DNA of 34,947 bases from Microcystis aeruginosa Ma_MB_S_20031200_S102 (GTDB taxonomy: Bacteria > Cyanobacteriota > Cyanobacteriia > Cyanobacteriales > Microcystaceae). Positions 4,148 to 13,659 of the stretch are shown here, in pieces. The translations under genes were made by a program, and so were the position numbers. Under the pieces are notes generated by a model. The model made no database searches, was not told where the DNA came from, and saw nothing but the letters and a program-made list of their open reading frames with translations. Location of the stretch: contig SFBI01000008.1 in assembly GCA_007095845.1 (NCBI GenBank), positions 1 through 34,947 of the forward strand. Reading direction: 5' to 3'. The stretch's first letter is position 1. Each line of letters starts with the position of its first letter.

Positions 4148-4970
4148 AAGATTGCGGGTAATTGCCACTTACCCAGTCCCCCTGCGACTGGGAATTTTTA
4201 TTTTGCTCCTACTTTTTCTCTGGTTGCCGATCGCACTTCCCCTCTATCACTTTTTTGCCACTAATGCTAATCTGGTCTCAATTTTGACCCTTTCTGTTCT
4301 CTATCTAGAGTTTTTGGGGTTATCCCATTGGTGGGGACGGATAATTTATGGTGATGAGGGATTAGCCGATTATGGGTTGATTTGGCGAAGAAAAACGCTG
4401 ATCGAGTTAATTAACGGGTTAGCGATCGGTTTATTTTTCACTTTCTCGCTTTTTCTATCCCAAGCGTTCCTAGGTTGGTTAAATTTCTTACCCGCAAATC
4501 CCCAGATCAGCAAAATCATCCTGGAGGGGTTTTTAGTCGCTTTAGCGGTGGGTTTTGCCGAAGAATTGCTATTTCGGGGCTGGTTACTGCGAGAATTAGA
4601 AAAGGATTATCGTCCCGCTATCGCTCTAGTGATTAGTGCCTTAATTTTCGCTCTTACCCACTTTATTAAACCTTTAGCCGAAATTATCCGCACTTTTCCC
4701 CAATTTCCTGCCTTAGTCTTGCTAGGATTGATTCTCGGTTGGGCCAAACGCGCCTGTGGTGGTAATTTGGGTAAAAGTATCGGTCTGCACGCGGGTTTAA
4801 TCTGGGCATACTATATATTAAATGTGGGTCAGTTAATTAAATACACTGGTACTGTTCCCAATTGGTTAACTGGAATCGGTAAAAATCCTTTAGCGGGAGT
4901 GATGGGTTTACTTTTCCTGACAATTCTCGCTATCTGGATCAGAAAAAAAGCAGTTTTGAGTGAACGATAG
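4140..4970 (+). CDS. CPBP-family (CAAX/Abi) intramembrane metalloprotease
   Basis: A 276-residue polytopic membrane protein with about seven hydrophobic segments. It shows the three CPBP (Rce1/Abi) motifs: EELLFRGW (residues 141-148, the EExxxR glutamates), FALTHF (His174) and GLHAGLIW (His217). These residues bind the catalytic zinc in this family. Substrates in cyanobacteria are unknown. The start ATG lies inside the clpS 3' end, so the two genes form an operon. The last 48 or so codons and the following 50 bases are duplicated downstream in a degenerate form at 10022-10212 and again at 13935-14145; only this copy is intact. Confidence 0.88.
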   Translation: MNKRLRVIATYPVPLRLGIFILLLLFLWLPIALPLYHFFATNANLVSILTLSVLYLEFLGLSHWWGRIIYGDEGLADYGLIWRRKTLIELINGLAIGLFFTFSLFLSQAFLGWLNFLPANPQISKIILEGFLVALAVGFAEELLFRGWLLRELEKDYRPAIALVISALIFALTHFIKPLAEIIRTFPQFPALVLLGLILGWAKRACGGNLGKSIGLHAGLIWAYYILNVGQLIKYTGTVPNWLTGIGKNPLAGVMGLLFLTILAIWIRKKAVLSER

Positions 4971-6190
4971 GGGATTAAATCAATTACTATAAAGGGGAAA
5001 TTGCCCATGAGAGTTATAGGCGATTCTAATTTTTGATGGGTTATTTTTAGTTTAATTCTCTGGCTAATGATTGGCAATCTCCTCTATTATATGCAAGTAA
5101 TTGTTTTACGTCAAAAGAACCCACAGGTTAATTCCTCTCCTGTTATCAGGAGTCAATTATTGAATCTTCCTGACCTATTCTCTCTATTTTGGTCACGGGG
5201 AAGGGAAGGAATCCGAGTATCATTATCCGAGGAATTAACGGGTAGTGATGGGGTATTTAGTGATTGAAAAATTAATGTTTATTCAATAAGTTTTTGGCAA
5301 TTTGGATTATCTTGCAAAGCTCGATCGATATCCGATTTCCAAGCTCTGTCATTATACCAACGTTTTGCCCAAAATTGAGCTTCTTTAAAGTTATCAGAAG
5401 TTGGGGGGATTTTGCACAAAATTTCAAAAGCACCTTCTCTACCCGGCACATCAGCGACAAAATTATCGACAGCTAGTCCTATTGCTTGCTGAATTAACCT
5501 TAATTCATTTAATTGAGTCCCACACTTGTAATAAAACTGATCACCTTGTTGCTTTTGCAAGTCTTGCAGTTGTTGAATATTCTTTTCCAAGCTAATATTA
5601 AAATCTCGTTTAGTACAAATTTCTGGAATACTAGGTGAGGGTTCCTTATCGGGAGTTCTTTGTGGTTGCAATGATAATAAGAACAAAATAATAAACGTAC
5701 CAAGTAGTAATAGTGCCGACGAAAAGGTAGAATCCTCCTCCTTAACTAATTTTTCTAATTCTTGTTTAACCCATTGAATATTAAATACCTCTTGATAAAT
5801 TCGATTGGTCACTTCTAGATACTCATCATTGTTAATCACTAATTCTGCTTGCTGAAGTGCCAATTTTTCTGGTTTGTTATCAGCAAAGACTCTCCCCTGC
5901 AAAATTTCTTGATAGATTTCTAATCTTGACCTAACATTTTTATCAGGAGTTAAGAGACTGTTTTGTATTTTCTGGAGATGGTCTGCCGCTTTATTTTGTA
6001 ACCAATTTTCTACAATATTTTTCTGAATTAATTGTTCAATTTTTGGTTTTTCTTGTCCTTCTCGTAACTCATTTTTATTGTCGATTAGCAAAAGGATAAC
6101 TATTATCGTTAACTCCCAGTTACCACCTGTCCAAGCTGGAATTTCCTCAATTAAAGCTGCTCTTTGATTCTCATCAAATTCAGTCCTTAA
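4827..6190. repeat. Segmental duplication, left copy (CPBP 3' end, amt remnant, AAA 3' half)
   Basis: This segment is collinear with 10022-12690. 4827-5019 matches 10022-10212. 5032-5278 matches 11477-11745 with a 20-base internal deletion. 5279 to about 6190 matches 11746 to about 12690. The left copy lacks the bulk of amt, roughly 1.27 kb. The gene order [CPBP tail, amt, convergent AAA gene] is the same in both, so this is one duplicated block rather than independent insertions. Boundaries are by eye. Confidence 0.85.
5032..5267 (+). pseudogene. Ammonium transporter (amt) C-terminal remnant
   Basis: From 5067 the frame encodes MIGNLLYYMQVIVLRQKNP and ends SDGVFSD, near-identical to the last 66 residues of the intact amt at 10217-11734. 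The DNA match extends upstream to about 5032 (TTTTGATGGGTTA) apart from a deletion of about 20 bases. All transmembrane helices except part of the last are gone, so it cannot transport ammonium. The residual frame is still open to its native stop, so the deletion may be fairly recent, or the conserved tail may simply not have had time to decay. I treat it as a remnant, not an independent gene. Confidence 0.9.
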
Positions 6191-7336
6191 TAGTATTTTA
6201 GCTAGTTGATCTACTCTTTCGTAGTATGCAGGGATTTTATTTAATTCCGTTGTCACCCAATTTTCATTAAAAACATTTCTATAAATCTTATTATAAACTT
6301 TTAACTTTTGTCGGTCTTGAACTACCAATCCCGTTAAGCGTAATTCTATTTGATCGGGACTACCATCATCGGTAATTTCACCATTTCTTAAAATTTCTTG
6401 GTAAAGCTTCAGCATTCTTCTACCCGTGACACGCTTATTTAATAAACGATTCCGAATAGTTTTTAGGTGTTCTGGACTATCTTGAGATACCCAGTTACTA
6501 ATTACTTGCGACTGGATAAAATCGCCGACATTAATCGGGGTTGCTGGGGATTCCTTGCCAAATCCAGGGCGAGATGTGGAGATTAAATTACAAATTTTTT
6601 GAGTTAAAAATGGTTGTCCACCTGTCCAGTCTATAACCTCCTCTAAAACCCGTTGCGGTGCGATAACTTTGTCCTGCAATCCCTCGGCAAGTTTTTTGGC
6701 ATCCTTTATAGTAAATCCAGATAATCGAATATCTTTACCAATATTAAAAGGACTACGATAATTATCTAGAATAAAGTTAGAAACTGCCGCTACCCCCAAC
6801 ATACAAAAGGTTAGACGTTGGTAATCCCTATTATGAGGACGTTTTTCATGACAGCTACGCAGCCAAGCAAAGAAATCATCTGTGGAAAAATTTAAGCTCA
6901 GAACGCTATCAATTTCATCGAAACAGATAACAATAGGTCGGGATACCTCCTTTAAGAGAACTTCCTCAACAAATTGATCAAGACGATTAATAGGTGATTT
7001 ATAGGCTCGTTCATCCCACCAAGTTTGCTCTTTTCCCCGAATAGAAAGATTGAAGCGTTTAACCAGTTGCTCAAATAATACTCGATACCAAATATCTTCG
7101 GAGATGTTTTTTCCTAGACCACTCAAATCAATGGTGGCACAATCAATATTATCCTCTTGCAGTCGTTTCTGTGTCTGTACCCACAAACTTGATTTTCCCA
7201 TCTGACGGGAATTCAACACATAGCAATACTGTCCATTTTTTAGATAGTTATAAAATAGATCATCTGCTTCCCGCTTGATATAACTAGGTGACTCTAGGGG
7301 GACGCTGCCTCCAATATGATAAAAATTGTTCGCCAT
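5279..7336 (-). CDS. AAA_35-type STAND-like ATPase with duplicated winged-helix module and C-terminal membrane segment
   Basis: A 685-residue protein. Residues 1-250 form an AAA_35-like P-loop domain: YIKREADDLFY lead-in, Walker A-like NSRQMGKSSL (42-51) and Walker B IVICFDEID (135-143). WTGGQPFL at 237-244 starts a C-terminal helical/winged-helix module. That module is repeated within the protein: WTGG at 237 and 402, ISNWV/VENWL, LYQEIL/IYQEIL, and IYRNVFNENWV/IYQEVFNIQWV. One strong hydrophobic helix (about 538-556) then precedes a soluble tail of about 125 residues containing PEICTKRDFNISL and FKEAQFWAKRW. AAA_35 proteins are abundant in cyanobacteria and thought to act in signalling or conflict; no function is proven. 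The gene converges with the amt remnant and lies 89 bases downstream of a second AAA gene on the same strand. Its 3' half is duplicated in the gene at 11746-13659. The tail matches no domain I recognise. Confidence 0.8.
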   Translation of the reverse strand: MANNFYHIGGSVPLESPSYIKREADDLFYNYLKNGQYCYVLNSRQMGKSSLWVQTQKRLQEDNIDCATIDLSGLGKNISEDIWYRVLFEQLVKRFNLSIRGKEQTWWDERAYKSPINRLDQFVEEVLLKEVSRPIVICFDEIDSVLSLNFSTDDFFAWLRSCHEKRPHNRDYQRLTFCMLGVAAVSNFILDNYRSPFNIGKDIRLSGFTIKDAKKLAEGLQDKVIAPQRVLEEVIDWTGGQPFLTQKICNLISTSRPGFGKESPATPINVGDFIQSQVISNWVSQDSPEHLKTIRNRLLNKRVTGRRMLKLYQEILRNGEITDDGSPDQIELRLTGLVVQDRQKLKVYNKIYRNVFNENWVTTELNKIPAYYERVDQLAKILLRTEFDENQRAALIEEIPAWTGGNWELTIIVILLLIDNKNELREGQEKPKIEQLIQKNIVENWLQNKAADHLQKIQNSLLTPDKNVRSRLEIYQEILQGRVFADNKPEKLALQQAELVINNDEYLEVTNRIYQEVFNIQWVKQELEKLVKEEDSTFSSALLLLGTFIILFLLSLQPQRTPDKEPSPSIPEICTKRDFNISLEKNIQQLQDLQKQQGDQFYYKCGTQLNELRLIQQAIGLAVDNFVADVPGREGAFEILCKIPPTSDNFKEAQFWAKRWYNDRAWKSDIDRALQDNPNCQKLIE

Positions 7337-7425: not shown

Positions 7426-8682
7426 TTAGGAGGATAGGCGATACCTAAAATAGTTGCTGTATAGTGGATAACGGGGTTGAACAGCATTCTGCACAAAGGT
7501 TACTAATCCTAAACTATGAAGTTGCCAATTAATTGTTGCACCTAAATCAACGGGAGAAGACGACTCTACAACCTTTTTCATTCCTGCTGCTAGGTTTGGA
7601 TGTTCTTGTAAGTTTAGCAAATGTCCTCGCAAATGATCCCCATAAATCCCCGCTTCCGTGGCTGCTGTCTCTAAAAAATCTGCTAAAGACAGTTGTTTTT
7701 GGCTAATCCCATAAATCGCTTTTTGGATTAAATAGGGATGTCCCCCGACAAGATTAATTATTCTTTGCAGTTCATCTTCTCCCAAGTCAGCCTGATATTT
7801 ATTGGCTAGAGTCAAGACCTGTTCTAGAGTAAAATCAGGTAACAGGATTTCTGTTCCTACATTCAAAGGAGATTTATTCAGGTCAGCAGGAACATAATTT
7901 TCTGTGGAATAGGTGATAATTAAGTGTAACTTTTGCCAAGTATTATTATTTTTTGCCTCCTCGTGCCAAAGACGAAATAAACTAAGGAAATCGTCGGCAA
8001 CGCTGGTATAGGTAAAGAGACTATCTATCTCCTCTAAAACTAAAATTAGGGGTTTATCCAGCTTTTTGAGCAAATGGTCTTCAAAATAGGCAGTACAGCT
8101 ATAAAGTCCTAATCCTTCTTGCCATTTTTCCTGAAAGAGAGCTGCTAACCCTAATGTCTTGGAAATAATCAAAGCAAACCAAGAGAGCAATCGGTCTAAA
8201 TCGCCGATAATTCCTTTGCTTGCTTGTAAAAAACTCAAACTGACGGTTTTATACTGTCTTTTGTCAACTTGACTCAAAATTCTATCGACTAATAGGGTTT
8301 TACCCATTCCCTTGGCTGATTTAATCCGCAACAATGAACCTGCTTGACTCACCGTCTCCAGACAAAGCTGTTCCACTGGAGGACGTTCAATATACTTGGA
8401 AAAATCCGCAGCCCGGTTTTCTCCCTCATCCTCAGACGTGGCAGCTGCTGTTTCCTCCAACTCATCCCAGTCAGCGATTTCTCGATAATCAAGTCCTAAT
8501 TTTTGACAAATTTCATAAAAATTGAGATTACTAATCGGTTTACCGTTAAGAAAAAGGCTAATAGTCGATTTTGCCAACCCTAACTCCTCAGCAAGCAGCT
8601 GTTGAGTTGCGAAACTATTGCGTTTAACTGCTTGTCTGACTCTAGGGATATATTCTGATTTTACTTTAAGCGATCGCCCCAT
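7426..8682 (-). CDS. HTH-AAA_35-type ATPase, probable transcriptional regulator
   Basis: A 418-residue protein. The N-terminus holds a Cro/XRE-like helix-turn-helix (about residues 23-65: FATQQLLAEELGLAKSTISL, then FLNGKPISNLNFYEICQKLG). After an acidic linker comes an AAA_35-like ATPase: KSAKGMGKTLL (Walker A, 121-131), PLILVLEEIDS (Walker B, 211-221), LHLIITYS (sensor 1-like, 252-259) and LVGGHPYLIQ (311-320), the GGxP motif common to STAND-type C-terminal modules. The C-terminus is helical without a membrane segment. Upstream at 8727-8797 there are two tandem 29-bp repeats plus an inverted half, which could be its operator. It probably switches transcription of itself and of the divergent pair at 8846-10016 in response to a signal read by the ATPase. 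That role is inference. Confidence 0.8.
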   Translation of the reverse strand: MGRSLKVKSEYIPRVRQAVKRNSFATQQLLAEELGLAKSTISLFLNGKPISNLNFYEICQKLGLDYREIADWDELEETAAATSEDEGENRAADFSKYIERPPVEQLCLETVSQAGSLLRIKSAKGMGKTLLVDRILSQVDKRQYKTVSLSFLQASKGIIGDLDRLLSWFALIISKTLGLAALFQEKWQEGLGLYSCTAYFEDHLLKKLDKPLILVLEEIDSLFTYTSVADDFLSLFRLWHEEAKNNNTWQKLHLIITYSTENYVPADLNKSPLNVGTEILLPDFTLEQVLTLANKYQADLGEDELQRIINLVGGHPYLIQKAIYGISQKQLSLADFLETAATEAGIYGDHLRGHLLNLQEHPNLAAGMKKVVESSSPVDLGATINWQLHSLGLVTFVQNAVQPRYPLYSNYFRYRLSS

Positions 8683-8726
8683 AAACTTCCATCAATCTAC
8701 GCAATCTCTATTTTATCGCAAAAAAC

Positions 8727-8797
8727 TCAGACATATCTCAGTCATGAGATCAGAGTCAGACATATATCAGTCATGAGATCAGAGAGTCATGACTGAG
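8727..8797. promoter_or_regulatory. Candidate operator: two tandem 29-bp repeats plus inverted third element
   Basis: 8727-8755 and 8756-8784 are 29-bp head-to-tail copies with one mismatch (TCAGACATATCTCAGTCATG... versus TCAGACATATATCAGTCATG...). Each contains CAGTCATGAG. At 8787-8797 TCATGACTGAG is the exact reverse complement of CTCAGTCATGA from the first copy. The cluster lies in the 163-base divergent spacer between the HTH-AAA gene and the small winged-helix gene, where an autoregulatory site would be. No binding data exist; this is inferred from position and symmetry. Confidence 0.65.
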
Positions 8798-8845
8798 GAT
8801 CAAGATGTACTGGTCGAAGTGTATTTATAAACTACACAAAATATA

Positions 8846-9154
8846 ATGCTTGACATATTTCCTCCTAAGCCCAAAGACAAGGACACTTATAAGGGTGATT
8901 CTGGGACTTCAGCTAAGTCTGACAATTATTTAACCTCCGCGGAGAAGTCTCTTTTATCTGATTTACTCAAAGTTAGGGCTGCCACTGTCGTAAGCTTTAA
9001 AATTGAAACAGATAGAGTTGGAGAAGCTGACTTACAACGTAAATTAGTAGAACTAAAGGACAAAGGCTATATCAAAGTCAATAAACAAAAAAACTACGAA
9101 ATCTTTACTCCCACTTGGAAAACTCGTTGGCTGAGGGTAAATGGTATTTTGTAG
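8846..9154 (+). CDS. Small hypothetical protein with winged-helix-like domain
   Basis: 102 residues. A polar, charged N-terminus (to about residue 30) leads into a segment that looks like a MarR/LexA-type winged helix: EKSLLSDLLKV, then EADLQRKLVELKDKGYIKV, then KNYEIFTPTWKTRWLR, where KGYI...YEIFTPT resembles the wing. I cannot name a family. The start ATG is preceded only by A-rich sequence (CACAAAATATA), with no strong Shine-Dalgarno. Its end overlaps the next gene by 14 bases in another frame, so the two are almost certainly co-transcribed from the divergent spacer that holds the 29-bp repeats. Confidence 0.7.
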   Translation: MLDIFPPKPKDKDTYKGDSGTSAKSDNYLTSAEKSLLSDLLKVRAATVVSFKIETDRVGEADLQRKLVELKDKGYIKVNKQKNYEIFTPTWKTRWLRVNGIL

Positions 9155-10016
9155 TCAGGTTCTAACGGAATTAGATAAGTTTCCTTTTTTCAGTTCATTC
9201 ACCCATTACCTATTTTTAGTAGATTCTCAGACAACTGCTGCCACCGACCTTTCTAGTGAAATACAGAAATTTGTGGAAGGACATCGGTGGTCTTTTGTGG
9301 TGACTGCGATAATTATTGGAGTAGCAGTTGAAACTAGAATTAGCTATTTCTCAGCTTTTAGGATTCGTCATTTATTTCCTAATTTAAAAAAGGATTTTTT
9401 AAAGACTTTCCGTTGTTTATTAATTGTCAAAATTGTTATATCAATACTCTTATACTATCTGATTCAATTTATATTTTCTCTATTAAGCTCGATCGAGGAT
9501 AATGTATATGTTAATTTAATCATTGCTCTGGTCTTCGGTTTTATTATTAGTTCCTTAAACCCTAATTTAGAACAAATTGACCAAGTAATGGGTGGATTTA
9601 GCCTATCTACAATTAATCCTGTCTCCAGTCTGATCAAAAAGCTATTAGAGTTGTACCAAGGATTTCAAATATCTATTATGGAGACTTTCGACGAGAAATT
9701 GGCATCGGAGAGAAACAGACTATATGATGATACCAGACATGAATTTGATCGTTTTCAAAGACTTACTATTCAAAAATACATCGAAGAATTAATCGGGAGA
9801 TATACACTGGAAAAAAAGCAAAAGAACTATCAAAGAAGATTAGACGCTATTCTAGCAGGATTTAGTGGCAGCGATCAGAAAGAAGAATTAATATGGTTAT
9901 TATTTACTATGGGTTTTACTGATGAAGATATTAATAAAATTAGAGATAACTCAACACAATCAATAATTTTAAAAAGACTGCGAGAAATAGAACAGGAGAA
10001 TAGTAGGATAAATTAA
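9141..10016 (+). CDS. Hypothetical multi-pass membrane protein with cytosolic C-terminal domain
   Basis: 291 residues, no family recognised. Hydrophobic segments lie at about 51-64 (FVVTAIIIGVAVE), 92-115 (LLIVKIVISILLYYLIQFIF) and 124-140 (NLIIALVFGFIISSL), with a possible weaker one near 15-28. From about 155 the protein is soluble and charged, with a helical region (FDEKLASERNRLYDDTRHEF) and an end EELIWLLFTMGFTDEDINKI that looks like a small helical interaction domain. GAGG lies just before the ATG. It overlaps the upstream winged-helix gene and ends about 5 bases before the right-hand duplicated block. A membrane protein with a coil-like cytosolic tail controlled by an ATPase regulator is a typical effector layout, but the function is unknown. 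Confidence 0.7.
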   Translation: MVFCSQVLTELDKFPFFSSFTHYLFLVDSQTTAATDLSSEIQKFVEGHRWSFVVTAIIIGVAVETRISYFSAFRIRHLFPNLKKDFLKTFRCLLIVKIVISILLYYLIQFIFSLLSSIEDNVYVNLIIALVFGFIISSLNPNLEQIDQVMGGFSLSTINPVSSLIKKLLELYQGFQISIMETFDEKLASERNRLYDDTRHEFDRFQRLTIQKYIEELIGRYTLEKKQKNYQRRLDAILAGFSGSDQKEELIWLLFTMGFTDEDINKIRDNSTQSIILKRLREIEQENSRIN

Positions 10017-10021
10017 ACTTC

Positions 10022-10164
10022 GGCCAGTTAATTAAATACACTGGTACTGCTCTTGAGCGATTAACTGGAATCGGTAAAAATCCTTGAGAGGGAGTGATGG
10101 GTTGACTTTTCCTGACAATTCTGGCTATCTGGATCAGAAAAAAGCAGTTTTGAGTGAACGATAG
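10022..10164 (+). pseudogene. CPBP protease 3'-end duplicate (non-coding)
   Basis: This copies the last codons of the CPBP gene at 4140-4970, from QLIKYTGT to the stop at 10162-10164. In the frame of the parent, two leucine TTA codons have become TGA (CCT-TGA-GAG and GGT-TGA-CTT), and one A is lost from the run before GCAGTTTTGAG. The match continues past the stop to about 10212, the leader of amt. It marks the left edge of the right-hand duplicated block. Confidence 0.9.
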
Positions 10165-10216
10165 GGGATTAAATCAATTATCATAAAGGGGAAATTGCCC
10201 ATCATAGCTATACCCC

Positions 10217-11734
10217 ATGAATCGATTATTATCTTTTCTAGAATATCGCCCGCGTTTGCGTAACATCCTATCTTTTTGTTTCTCTCTTATCGTCATGCTG
10301 TTGATCGGTGTAGGCAAAGTCACAGCACAGGATTTAAATAATTCTACTCTGGATTTAGTTGCTAATATCTGGATGTTAACAGCTGGCTCATTAGTATTCT
10401 TTATGAATGCAGGTTTTGCCCTGCTGGAAACGGGTTTTTGTCGTACTAATAACGCCACTAATGTTTTAGCTAAAAACCTAATTGTCTTCTGTATTTCTGC
10501 CTTAGCTTATTGGATGTTTGGTTTCGGTTTAATGTTTGGCAATACATCGGTACTACAAAATAGTTTCTCTGGTGGTACAGGATTTTTCTTGGAAATTTTA
10601 ACCCCTAATAATCAATACAGTCAATTCCAAGAATCGTGGCCAGGTCGTTCAATTGCTACTTTGTTTTTCTTTCAATTAACCTTTGCAGGAACTGCGGCAA
10701 CCATTGTATCGGGAGCGGTGGCAGAAAGGGTTAAATTTTGGGCATTTTTGCTATTTAGCTTCTTTTTAGTCGCTTTTTCTTATTCTATTACAGGACATTG
10801 GATTTGGTCATCGGAAGGATGGTTATATAACTTATTTAAGTTTCGAGATTTTGCTGGTTCAACGGTGGTGCATTCGGTGGGAGGAATGGCCGGATTAGTG
10901 GGTGCTTGGTTACTAAAACCGAGAGATGGACGCTTTGGTTATAATCGCAAAACTGATCGTTATGAAGAAAAAGAAAGGGGAAATTTTGCTCCCCATCAGT
11001 TAGGATTTGCAACTCTTGGTTGTTTCATTCTTTGGTTAGGATGGTTTGGTTTTAATGGTGGTTCGGCAGTAAATTTGAATGATGTCCCCATGGTAATTAC
11101 TACTACGGTTATTGCCGCTGCTACAGGAGGATTTTTGGCCTTAATTTTTAATCCTTTAATTGGCCGCAAAGTCAGTTTATCCATAATTATTAATGGCATT
11201 TTGGGGGGATTAGTGGGGATTACGGCATCCTCAGGTTATGTTAATATCAAATCAGCTATTATCATCGGTGGCATTAGTGGCATTATCGTCTTATTGGGGG
11301 GAGAATTTTTAGTTAAAACTAAAGTAGTTGATGATCCAGTGGGAGCAATTTCAGTACATCTTTTCTGTGGTTTTTGGGGAACAATGGCAGTGGGTTTCTT
11401 TAGTACCAAAGATGCGGGAGAATTCGCCCTTGGATTAACACAAAATAGTCGCATATCTCAAGTCGCTTTTCAATTTTTTGGATGGGTTATAGTCATGGCA
11501 TTTACCTTTATTTTTAGTTTAGTTCTCTGGCTAATGATTGGCAATCTCCTCTACTATATGCAAGTAATTGTTTTACGTCAAAAGAACCCACCAGTTAACT
11601 TCTCTCCTTTTATCAAGAGTCAATCCTTCAATGTTTCCGACCTATTCTCACTATTTTGGTCACGGGGAAGGGAAGGAATCCGGGTATCATTATCCGATGA
11701 ATTAACGGGTAGTGATGGGGTATTTAGTGACTAA
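10217..11734 (+). CDS. amt: Ammonium transporter, Amt/MEP/Rh family
   Basis: A 505-residue Amt. An N-terminal hydrophobic segment ending GVGKVTAQ (about 18-38) looks like a signal peptide. It is followed by ANIWMLTAGSLVFFMNAGFA, LLETGFCRTNN and the TFAGTAATIVSGAVAERVKF motif. The pore twin histidines are His219 (VVHSVGGMAGLVGAW) and His381 (ISVHLFCGFWGTMAVG). NFAPHQLGFATLG and LGWFGFNGGSA are also family hallmarks. The C-terminal cytosolic tail ends SDGVFSD. Amt passes ammonium through the plasma membrane and is usually under NtcA/PII control, but I found no clear GTAN8TAC site in the leader. The leader is the duplicated CPBP 3' region, so its promoter probably lies within 10022-10216. It converges with the Hpt-AAA fusion gene, with 11 bases between the stops. 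Confidence 0.95.
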   Translation: MNRLLSFLEYRPRLRNILSFCFSLIVMLLIGVGKVTAQDLNNSTLDLVANIWMLTAGSLVFFMNAGFALLETGFCRTNNATNVLAKNLIVFCISALAYWMFGFGLMFGNTSVLQNSFSGGTGFFLEILTPNNQYSQFQESWPGRSIATLFFFQLTFAGTAATIVSGAVAERVKFWAFLLFSFFLVAFSYSITGHWIWSSEGWLYNLFKFRDFAGSTVVHSVGGMAGLVGAWLLKPRDGRFGYNRKTDRYEEKERGNFAPHQLGFATLGCFILWLGWFGFNGGSAVNLNDVPMVITTTVIAAATGGFLALIFNPLIGRKVSLSIIINGILGGLVGITASSGYVNIKSAIIIGGISGIIVLLGGEFLVKTKVVDDPVGAISVHLFCGFWGTMAVGFFSTKDAGEFALGLTQNSRISQVAFQFFGWVIVMAFTFIFSLVLWLMIGNLLYYMQVIVLRQKNPPVNFSPFIKSQSFNVSDLFSLFWSRGREGIRVSLSDELTGSDGVFSD

Positions 11735-11745
11735 AAAGTTAATGT

Positions 11746-13659
11746 TTATTCGATAAGTTTTTGGCAATCTGGATTATCTGGCAAAGCTCGCTCGATATCC
11801 AGTTTCCAAGCTTTGTCATTGTGCCAACGTTTTGCCCAAAATTGAGCTTCTTTAAAGTTATCAGAAGTTGGGGGGATTTTGCACAACATTTCAAAAGCAC
11901 CGTATTTACCCGGTAGATTAGCCACAAAATTATTGGCAGCTAATCCTATTGCCTGCTGAATTAACATTAATTCACTTAATTGAGTCGCACACTTTTCAGA
12001 AAGCCGATTACCTTGTTTCCTTTTCAAGTCTTGCAGTTGTTGAATAGTCCTGTTTAAGCTAATATTAAAATCTCGTTTAGCACAAATTTCTGGAATACTA
12101 GGTGAGGTTTTAACTACGACATTAGGAGTCTTTTCAGGAGTCTTGAATGACAAAAAAGCAAATCCAAGAAAGCCTAATATTGCCAAGAAAGATAACAATT
12201 TAGTTAAATCAGCAGGAGAATTTTCCACCTTAACTAATTTTTCTAGTTCTTGTCTAACCCATTGAACATTAAATACCTCTTGGTAAATTTGATTACTCAC
12301 TTCTAGATAATCATCATTTTTAATCACTAATTCTGCTTGCTGCAGTGCCAGTTTTTCTGGTTTGTTATCAGCAAAGACTCCCCCCTGTTGCAAAATTTCT
12401 TGATAGATTTCTAATCTTGACCTAACATTTTCATCAGCAGTTAAGAGACTGTTTTGTATTTTCTGGAGATGGGATGCCGCTTTATTTTCTAACCAATTTT
12501 TTACAATATGTTTCTGAATCAATTGTTCAATTAATGGTTTTTCTTGTCCTTCCTGTAACTCATTTTTATTGTCGATTAGCAAACGGATAACTATTTCCGT
12601 TAACTCCAAGTTACCACCCGTCCAAGCTAGAGTCTCCTTAATTAAAGCTGCTCTTTGATTCTCCTCAAATTCGGGTGTTAATTTTTCTTCAGCTAGTTGA
12701 TATGCTTCCCTTTGGCTTGCCATCTCTACTTTTCGCTCCGTTGGGATTTGACTTAACTCTAACAAACGCTTTTCTGACTCATTAGGATCCTGATTTTCAC
12801 TCCAATTTGAAGCTTCTTCTAAATCTTGATCAGAAAAAAGTTCGTATGTACTAACTATTGATTCCGCTTCCGGGTTAATCAGGATTTGTGGTAATTTGGC
12901 GGCGGCTAATAATTGCAATTCTTGACTGACGGTGATTTCTTCCCCGCGACCCCATTCTAATAAATCACTAGCTTGTTTTAATTCCCTAATAATAACTGGG
13001 GCGAGAGTGCGGTAGGAATGTTTGGGGTTGGCTAAGGCTGATTGGGCATTTTTAACTAAATATTGCCATTGTTGTTGTTCTGAAGCTAATTGAGACAGAG
13101 ATAAAATTAATTCTTGCAATTGCTCACGGGAAGTGCTGGTTTCTTCCTGTTTAAACAGTTTTAACATCTGTTTGAGGCTATCTCTGACGCTGATGGAGAT
13201 AGAATATCTTGCCGCAATAGCGGGGGTGGATTTTACTTGGCCGAGCAGATAGTTAAGATGGGCCTGTAATTCAGCAAAAGTCGGTTCACCGTTTTTGACG
13301 ATAGCATTAGCTTCTTCGGCCTGCAAACCTAATGGCTCCTGCAGCTTATCAATCAATACGTGAAGTAGCTCATAACTCTTGAGGAACAAAGACTCTAATT
13401 TTTGATCCACTTCTATGGGGTTTTCTTTCAATATTGTGAAAGCATCCTCAAGACGGTGAGCAGTTTTCTGGATACTACTATAGCCTAACATGGCCGCCCC
13501 TGCCTTGACGGAATGGGCGGCACGAAACACCTCGTTAATCTGTTCAGTGTTATTGACGAGATGGCCTAAGTTTAAAATCCCCTGTTCTAAAGTTTCCAGG
13601 TGTTCTTTCGCTTCTTCGATGAAATAGCCGAGAATTTTCTGATCGTTAGCGGAGTCCAA
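11746..13659 (-). CDS. Chimeric protein: Hpt (CheA/PilL-like) N-terminus fused to AAA-gene C-terminal half
   Basis: 637 residues in one frame. Residues 1-110 are an Hpt domain (FIEEAKEHLETLEQGIL; phospho-accepting His49 in FRAAHSVKAGAAMLGY), like the first domain of cyanobacterial CheA/PilL hybrid kinases. Residues 110-315 match the helical region that follows in such kinases. From about 328 (LTPEFEENQRAALI) to the end the protein is homologous to residues 384-685 of the AAA protein at 5279-7336. That part comprises one WTGG module (346-349), a membrane helix (about 485-504) and the tail with PEICAKRDFNISL and FKEAQFWAKRW. It lacks both the kinase catalytic domain and the P-loop ATPase. The 5' end points away from amt. 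The simplest explanation is recombination during the block duplication. It could be expressed, but whether it is functional is open. Confidence 0.8.
   Translation of the reverse strand: MDSANDQKILGYFIEEAKEHLETLEQGILNLGHLVNNTEQINEVFRAAHSVKAGAAMLGYSSIQKTAHRLEDAFTILKENPIEVDQKLESLFLKSYELLHVLIDKLQEPLGLQAEEANAIVKNGEPTFAELQAHLNYLLGQVKSTPAIAARYSISISVRDSLKQMLKLFKQEETSTSREQLQELILSLSQLASEQQQWQYLVKNAQSALANPKHSYRTLAPVIIRELKQASDLLEWGRGEEITVSQELQLLAAAKLPQILINPEAESIVSTYELFSDQDLEEASNWSENQDPNESEKRLLELSQIPTERKVEMASQREAYQLAEEKLTPEFEENQRAALIKETLAWTGGNLELTEIVIRLLIDNKNELQEGQEKPLIEQLIQKHIVKNWLENKAASHLQKIQNSLLTADENVRSRLEIYQEILQQGGVFADNKPEKLALQQAELVIKNDDYLEVSNQIYQEVFNVQWVRQELEKLVKVENSPADLTKLLSFLAILGFLGFAFLSFKTPEKTPNVVVKTSPSIPEICAKRDFNISLNRTIQQLQDLKRKQGNRLSEKCATQLSELMLIQQAIGLAANNFVANLPGKYGAFEMLCKIPPTSDNFKEAQFWAKRWHNDKAWKLDIERALPDNPDCQKLIE

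Follow-up and report, generated by a model that had tools for sequence, protein, structure and literature searches.

The window analysed here is a stretch of 34,947 nucleotides from Microcystis aeruginosa Ma_MB_S_20031200_S102 (contig SFBI01000008.1), whose genome comprises 4.57 Mb in 219 contigs. It contains two neighbouring genes for ATPases of the AAA_35 family and, divergent from them, a cassette of two genes coding for proteins of 102 and 291 residues, which overlap by 14 bases. A first-pass annotation of this DNA had described four genes, a spacer, 29-bp copies and a partial inverted half, and this layout was recovered in full. The genes are arranged as follows:

5279-7336, minus strand: second ATPase, 685 aa, AAA_35 domain (Pfam) plus a C-terminal region, predicted sensor partner
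7426-8682, minus strand: first ATPase, 418 aa, XRE-type helix-turn-helix (HTH) fused to AAA_35 (Pfam), predicted DNA-binding partner
8683-8845: divergent spacer of 163 bases between the first ATPase and the 102-residue gene
8846-9154, plus strand: small winged-helix-like protein (family alignment), 102 aa, first gene of the two-gene cassette
9141-10016, plus strand: membrane protein, 291 aa, with three hydrophobic segments and a long helical tail

Homologues of all four proteins exist in other genomes and the repeats of the spacer return at orthologous loci, so the locus is more than a chance arrangement. The first ATPase matches AAA_35 with 401 bits and HTH_3 with 23 bits, the latter equal to the HTH_3 cut-off, and carries Walker A- and B-like motifs (IKSAKGMGKTLL and ILVLEEIDSLF). 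The second ATPase matches AAA_35 with 124.2 bits, and both proteins exceed the curated cut-off of 27 bits for this model (PF14516). A single hydrophobic segment is found late in the second ATPase (residues 535-553), in agreement with the earlier description of a second AAA_35 ATPase with a membrane anchor 3' of the regulator.

A set of 388 genomes of the order, evenly drawn from a larger group, was surveyed with the HTH-ATPase as query (E <= 1e-110). A close relative was present in 15 of them and in all 15 a gene related to 5279-7336 followed downstream on the same strand, with gaps of 66-830 bp, although it was broken in one genome (G015) and short (373 aa) in another (G024). Among 23 further HTH-bearing loci of families f10 and f17, which include six re-fetches of order-survey loci, the partner ATPase was found in 22 and was absent in L156. 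In a tree of 43 AAA domains (four of 47 rows were dropped because the Walker pattern used missed them) a branch with 100/100 support set the second ATPases apart from a group that joins the first ATPases and unpaired ones. The pairwise distances of the partners are correlated (r 0.89, 19 pairs), also within f10 (r 0.79, 10 pairs), and in neither case was a value as high reached in any of 5000 permutations. These data argue with high confidence for two ATPases that are constant partners. The companion of the regulator is thus the second ATPase, which had been named only in passing, and not the 102/291 pair. Relatives of the first ATPase at E <= 1e-20 occur in 48 of 50 genomes of the family, and AAA_35 genes are abundant in cyanobacteria; literature searches on AAA_35 or the AAA-like domain in cyanobacteria returned, among the listings of the library searched, no description of such an ATPase pair, and in the part of PMC11119718 available the sole mention of AAA_35 is as a domain accessory to sigma factors. 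A search of a structure library with the HTH-ATPase gave no match to a solved structure. Among unpaired genes, two HTH-AAA_35 genes of Microcystis (L064, L067) are preceded by series of tandem repeats with a 7-bp unit. Divergent from five unpaired AAA_35 genes without an HTH (L072, L074, L075, L078, L080) are open reading frames (ORFs) of 51-76 aa, whose products begin with a hydrophobic stretch resembling a signal peptide and end in an acidic stretch that contains cysteine.

The C-terminus of the second ATPase is exchanged between genomes. It is formed by WD40 repeats, with no hydrophobic segment, in G505, G476, G460 and G482, by one hydrophobic segment followed by Peripla_BP_6 in G597, and by one hydrophobic segment followed by TPR and COP23 in G562. 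In Microcystis, G017 and G438 the part behind the hydrophobic segment matches no Pfam model, and the proteins of G026, G017 and G438 have no Pfam domain beyond AAA_35. An HTH on the first ATPase and changing C-termini on the second are the pattern of a DNA-binding responder and a sensor, and we infer these roles for the two proteins.

The spacer contains the following features:

8694-8699, minus strand, and alternatively 8710-8715: candidate -10 hexamers of the first ATPase, TAGATT (22 nt from the nearest repeat) and TAAAAT, both by sequence match only
8722-8732 and 8733-8743, plus strand: two predicted 11-bp operator repeats, AAAACTCAGAC and ATATCTCAGTC, with weight matrix (PWM) scores of 9.6 and 7.1
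8727-8755 and 8756-8784, plus strand: two 29-bp tandem copies, 97% identical
8751-8772, plus strand: second, degenerate cluster at an offset of 29 bp, CAGAGTCAGAC and ATATATCAGTC, PWM scores of 1.1 and 3.8, below threshold
8767-8777 against 8786-8796: inverted element TCAGTCATGAG-8-GTCATGACTGA, 10 of 11 positions paired

Upstream of 25 first-ATPase genes the self-match at an offset of 11 bp amounted to a mean of 14.48 out of 20, compared with 10.5 in 176 controls; at the other 28 offsets tested it was 9.1-11.1. A PWM refined on 16 loci of another family, f10, gave ATAAGTCAGTT, with the core AASTCAG followed by 4 nt. Pairs of sites spaced by 11 bp were found in held-out sequences of all four other Microcystis loci and in four of seven further loci (the window, G017, G438 and G482), but upstream of none of 163 other genes, the control set after removal of 13 first-ATPase upstream regions. 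Of the 15 such pairs in 439,234 bases, 13 were located upstream of a first-ATPase type of gene; the one in L126 is inside the longest ORF, yet upstream of the conserved start. The other two, both in L121 (15325, plus strand; 3740, minus strand), lie away from the first ATPase and may mark other targets in G562. In the genome of the window itself the extended repeat pattern, allowing up to two mismatches, had no match elsewhere. Binding of the HTH-AAA protein to repeats in this spacer, as the first-pass annotation had proposed, is hence very probable, and the 11-bp repeat array is very likely the operator of the first ATPase.

The distances between repeats recur: 11 bp at 19 of 25 loci, 22 and 29 bp at eight each and 40 bp at six. 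The distance of 29 bp is more frequent than in a block-preserving null (P 0.001, or 0.01 if the best of all distances is considered), with the eight loci including two unpaired paralogues and two close relatives. The window is not among them because its second cluster scores below threshold; the offset of this cluster is that of the 29-bp tandem copies and matches the recurrent spacing. A basic operator unit of 29 bp was rejected, since the copy number varies between five aligned Microcystis rows (read by eye as 2, 1, 2 and 1, with a longer array, which has an insertion, in the fifth) and an 11-bp unit explains the pattern better.

A TANNNT hexamer lies 22-23 nt beyond the nearest repeat at 11 of 21 loci, as against a mean of 1.13 in shuffled sequences, none of 2000 of which scored as high. 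With near-copies dropped the spacing was seen at 7 of 16 loci, and a lesser peak lies one repeat further. Together with a standard 17-bp spacer this distance would place the repeats against the -35 element, an arrangement that suits an activator and is also compatible with a repressor. Autoregulation by the first ATPase is probable.

What else the spacer may control was addressed by comparing the divergent genes. Small divergent ORFs with a hydrophobic segment were found at 14 of 24 paired loci outside Microcystis but in only 30 of 163 controls (Fisher p 8e-5; one locus with a short flank was excluded), and a divergent small membrane ORF at one of eight unpaired paralogues. Two of the divergent small proteins matched CyanoTRADDas_TM (E 9e-8 and 1.8e-19) and one type of 51 residues recurred in several f10 genomes. 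This enrichment makes a membrane output plausible. The earlier idea of a single system made of the regulator and the 102/291 pair is not supported. Whether the two ATPases control this pair stands at even chances, and its action as a membrane effector is a more tentative proposal; the pair is a putative output, and its link to the ATPases is plausible in Microcystis only.

In sum, the two-ATPase regulatory module is real and conserved, its predicted operator has good support, and it is regarded as a variant of ATPase-gated transcription regulators. A signal would be received by the C-terminal module of the second ATPase, here the membrane segment plus approximately 130 residues, and the first ATPase, with its DNA-binding HTH, would assemble cooperatively on the 11-bp direct repeats, one per turn of DNA. 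Since the array would adjoin the -35 element of the promoter of the first ATPase, its own operon would be switched and probably activated; in Microcystis the divergent cassette would probably be controlled from the same spacer and act at the membrane. The sequences show that the ATPases form a pair and co-diverge, that the C-termini are swapped and how the repeat array is spaced to a -10-like hexamer; sensing, binding, the sign of regulation and both control and action of the cassette are inferred. As an explanation of the whole locus, a two-ATPase signalling locus is favoured on balance.

Several observations weigh against it. Eight HTH-bearing paralogue loci (with only ~40% identity), besides L156, have no partner ATPase, and three of eight unpaired HTH paralogues tested also carry 11-spaced pairs, which means that such an operator occurs outside the paired form as well. 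The seed of the PWM was chosen by eye after the upstream sequences, held-out ones included, had been viewed, and no motif was found near the start in four of 25 upstream regions (L143, L149, L162, L124). Related loci are not independent in the counts. Two of the 14 divergent ORFs (L141, L149) may be chance ORFs, and by the same measure Microcystis scored 0 of 5, because the divergent gene closest to its regulator lacks a membrane segment and the start of the 291-residue gene is too distant. No repeat with a PWM score of at least 4 faces the 102-residue gene in the window, and several Microcystis genomes have only a broken pair or have lost it.

The closest working analogue of the ATPase locus is, by analogy, provided by the SARP-LAL and other large SARP regulators of Streptomyces such as PimR and AfsR, in which, according to the sections available of PMC5930380 and PMC10936776, an ATPase-fused DNA-binding domain targets direct repeats with an 11-bp period; the repeats are a heptamer plus 4 nt and the target of PimR has a main and a secondary cluster. 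Like these, the locus described here has a heptamer, AASTCAG, plus 4 nt at a period of 11 bp with clusters 29 bp apart, as known from sequence alone. Unlike these, it has an XRE-type HTH, with no SARP or BTAD domain detected by Pfam, an AAA_35 ATPase, a constant second partner ATPase and a cyanobacterial host; because the DNA-binding domain differs, it cannot be counted as a member. STAND-type activators, for example MalT, also form ATPase-gated oligomers on repeated sites near the -35 element, but MalT is a single protein with its own sensor, whereas two partner ATPases are found here. Two-component systems have adjacent constant partners with sensor modules swapped on one of them, as seen here, but neither a kinase nor a receiver domain is among the Pfam matches of the two ATPases. 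In cyanobacterial TRADD-N and NTP-dependent conflict systems a constant core is combined with variable modules, as far as the excerpts of PMC8195603 and PMC7159879 go. Similar to these, the present loci have variable modules on a constant core, and a CyanoTRADDas_TM protein is divergent at two orthologous loci; no TRADD-N match was listed by Pfam for the seven window proteins scanned.

The 102-residue protein matched MarR-type chains weakly (best MarR/EmrR, E 0.0058) and winged-helix Pfam models below cut-off. The 291-residue protein has three hydrophobic segments in the window, and others of its family that were examined have three to five. Weak matches to SLATT, MatE and other Pfam models were below cut-off and were rejected; no SLATT model (pore-forming effectors with two membrane helices) is among the Pfam matches listed, and a distant relation is possible. 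An AlphaFold2 model from 10 sequences was all-helical with a mean predicted local distance difference test score (pLDDT) of 57.5, a low confidence at which no fold assignment is supported, and searches of solved structures gave only weak matches for both pair proteins. The mean ratio of nonsynonymous to synonymous changes (dN/dS) was 1.52 for the 102-residue and 1.02 for the 291-residue protein, compared with 0.42 for the first ATPase, 0.82 for the first 370 codons of the second ATPase and 0.15 for the CPBP gene nearby. When the window was compared with three other sequences, dN of the 291-residue protein was 0.035-0.062 for residues 1-179 but 0.248-0.285 for the tail, where dS is raised as well (0.199-0.228). 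This makes an exchange of tail alleles likelier than selection alone or uniform decay.

With profiles of both proteins the same gene order was found at seven loci in six genomes outside Microcystis (G012, G035, G042, G045, G049 with two copies, one of them broken, and G438). On each side of these loci a stretch of at least 8.5 kb is free of relatives of the two ATPases. The G438 version of the small protein is a fusion with a membrane domain of three segments. A search of genome contigs returned three loci and the relatives named were Microcystis. Weak profile matches beyond the known members were obtained for L049 and four others, and L048 proved to be a 214-aa protein without a membrane partner. 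A plasmid search with the 102-residue homologue of L010 gave no match. Among the 12 Microcystis genomes of the comparison set the 291-residue gene is split in G024, only remnants are left in G025 and G028, and no cassette match was found in G027, G030, G033 and G034. In G031 the pair is at a contig end, where the 291-residue gene is shortened. As judged from gene order, the pair is a separate cassette with a divergent position in Microcystis only.

An unrelated, decaying passenger that entered this spacer in the ancestor of Microcystis, with the ATPases controlling only themselves, is favoured by the dN/dS values near or above 1, by the split, shortened, remnant and missing 291-residue genes and by the lack of a motif site facing the pair. 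In addition, the tail of a CPBP gene follows the 291-residue gene in all five loci with a 3' end (G000, G024, G026, G029, G032), a sign of rearrangement. However, the ORFs are intact in four of six genomes holding the 102-residue gene, the uneven change in the tail fits allele exchange better than uniform decay, and the order of the two genes is kept in other genera; a passenger is the strongest of the alternatives and still unlikely.

The small first gene overlapping a membrane gene and the patchy distribution are also reminiscent of a toxin-antitoxin-like pair, a small regulator with a membrane toxin, that has nothing to do with the ATPases. Neighbouring ORFs in L008 presumably resemble PIN and HicAB proteins, and three of 66 neighbours matched a PIN domain. 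On the other hand, neither protein belongs to a toxin or antitoxin Pfam family at cut-off or has an NCBIfam match below 0.05, and the overlap is not universal, with a gap of 367 bases in L083, which leaves such a pair with a rather small chance.

Still less probable is that HTH-ATPase and 102/291 pair are one dedicated, defence-like regulator-effector unit, the view of the first-pass annotation. The co-occurrence check it had suggested went largely against it. Of the 12 Microcystis genomes, five combine a regulator of at least 93% identity with the pair, divergent in all five, and both pair genes evolve fast, but all these cases derive from one ancestral locus. In the loci outside Microcystis the pair is by itself in 7/7 cases, and 10 of 10 orthologous regulators lack it beside them (the contig of G460 breaks off 292 bases upstream of its regulator); the two are on separate contigs in G438. 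PADLOC, a collection of anti-phage systems, gave no match of E < 0.01 to the four proteins. As a general unit this reading is largely refuted. In 66 ORFs around seven cassette loci 14 PADLOC models each matched one ORF, amid housekeeping genes.

Repression by the 102-residue protein of its own operon through the repeats is very improbable: its winged-helix-like gene adjoins a partly palindromic element, but the motif follows the HTH-ATPase gene across families, no 11-spaced pair lies upstream of any of seven homologues outside Microcystis and the inverted element is absent from one of five aligned Microcystis rows. A default-setting repeat search listed no inverted pair in the spacer, and a possible operator copy on the side of the 102-residue gene, noticed by eye, was rejected with a PWM score below 4.

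Traces of rearrangement surround the locus. The tail of the CPBP gene is duplicated (4813-5018 and 10008-10212, 89% identity), flanking the ATPase/cassette block, and a remnant of the tail of an Amt gene lies at 5067-5267; both are a recombination footprint. An ammonium transporter gene is located at 10217-11734, and such a gene (64-66% identical) is convergent 3' of the second ATPase in G017, G015 and G438 (L093, L094, L119) and in Microcystis. A chimeric ORF (11746-13659, minus strand), also present in G025 and G028, joins a CheA-like Hpt N-terminus to the C-terminal part of a second-ATPase gene; its region 11508-12701 is 86% identical to 5041-6210 at the DNA level.

Taken together, a constant partner, swapped sensor modules and a predicted operator of exact spacing make binding and signalling by this two-ATPase locus testable, and the repeats provide a DNA signature for further members. 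More speculatively, and with somewhat less than even odds, the locus may represent an undescribed class of cyanobacterial signalling systems, in which, within obligate AAA_35 pairs, a sensor ATPase with exchangeable modules would pass its state to an HTH-ATPase polymerising on helix-phased 11-bp repeats, in clusters 29 bp apart, and so gate an exchangeable divergent membrane effector, the 102/291 cassette with its fast-exchanging tail being the Microcystis version.

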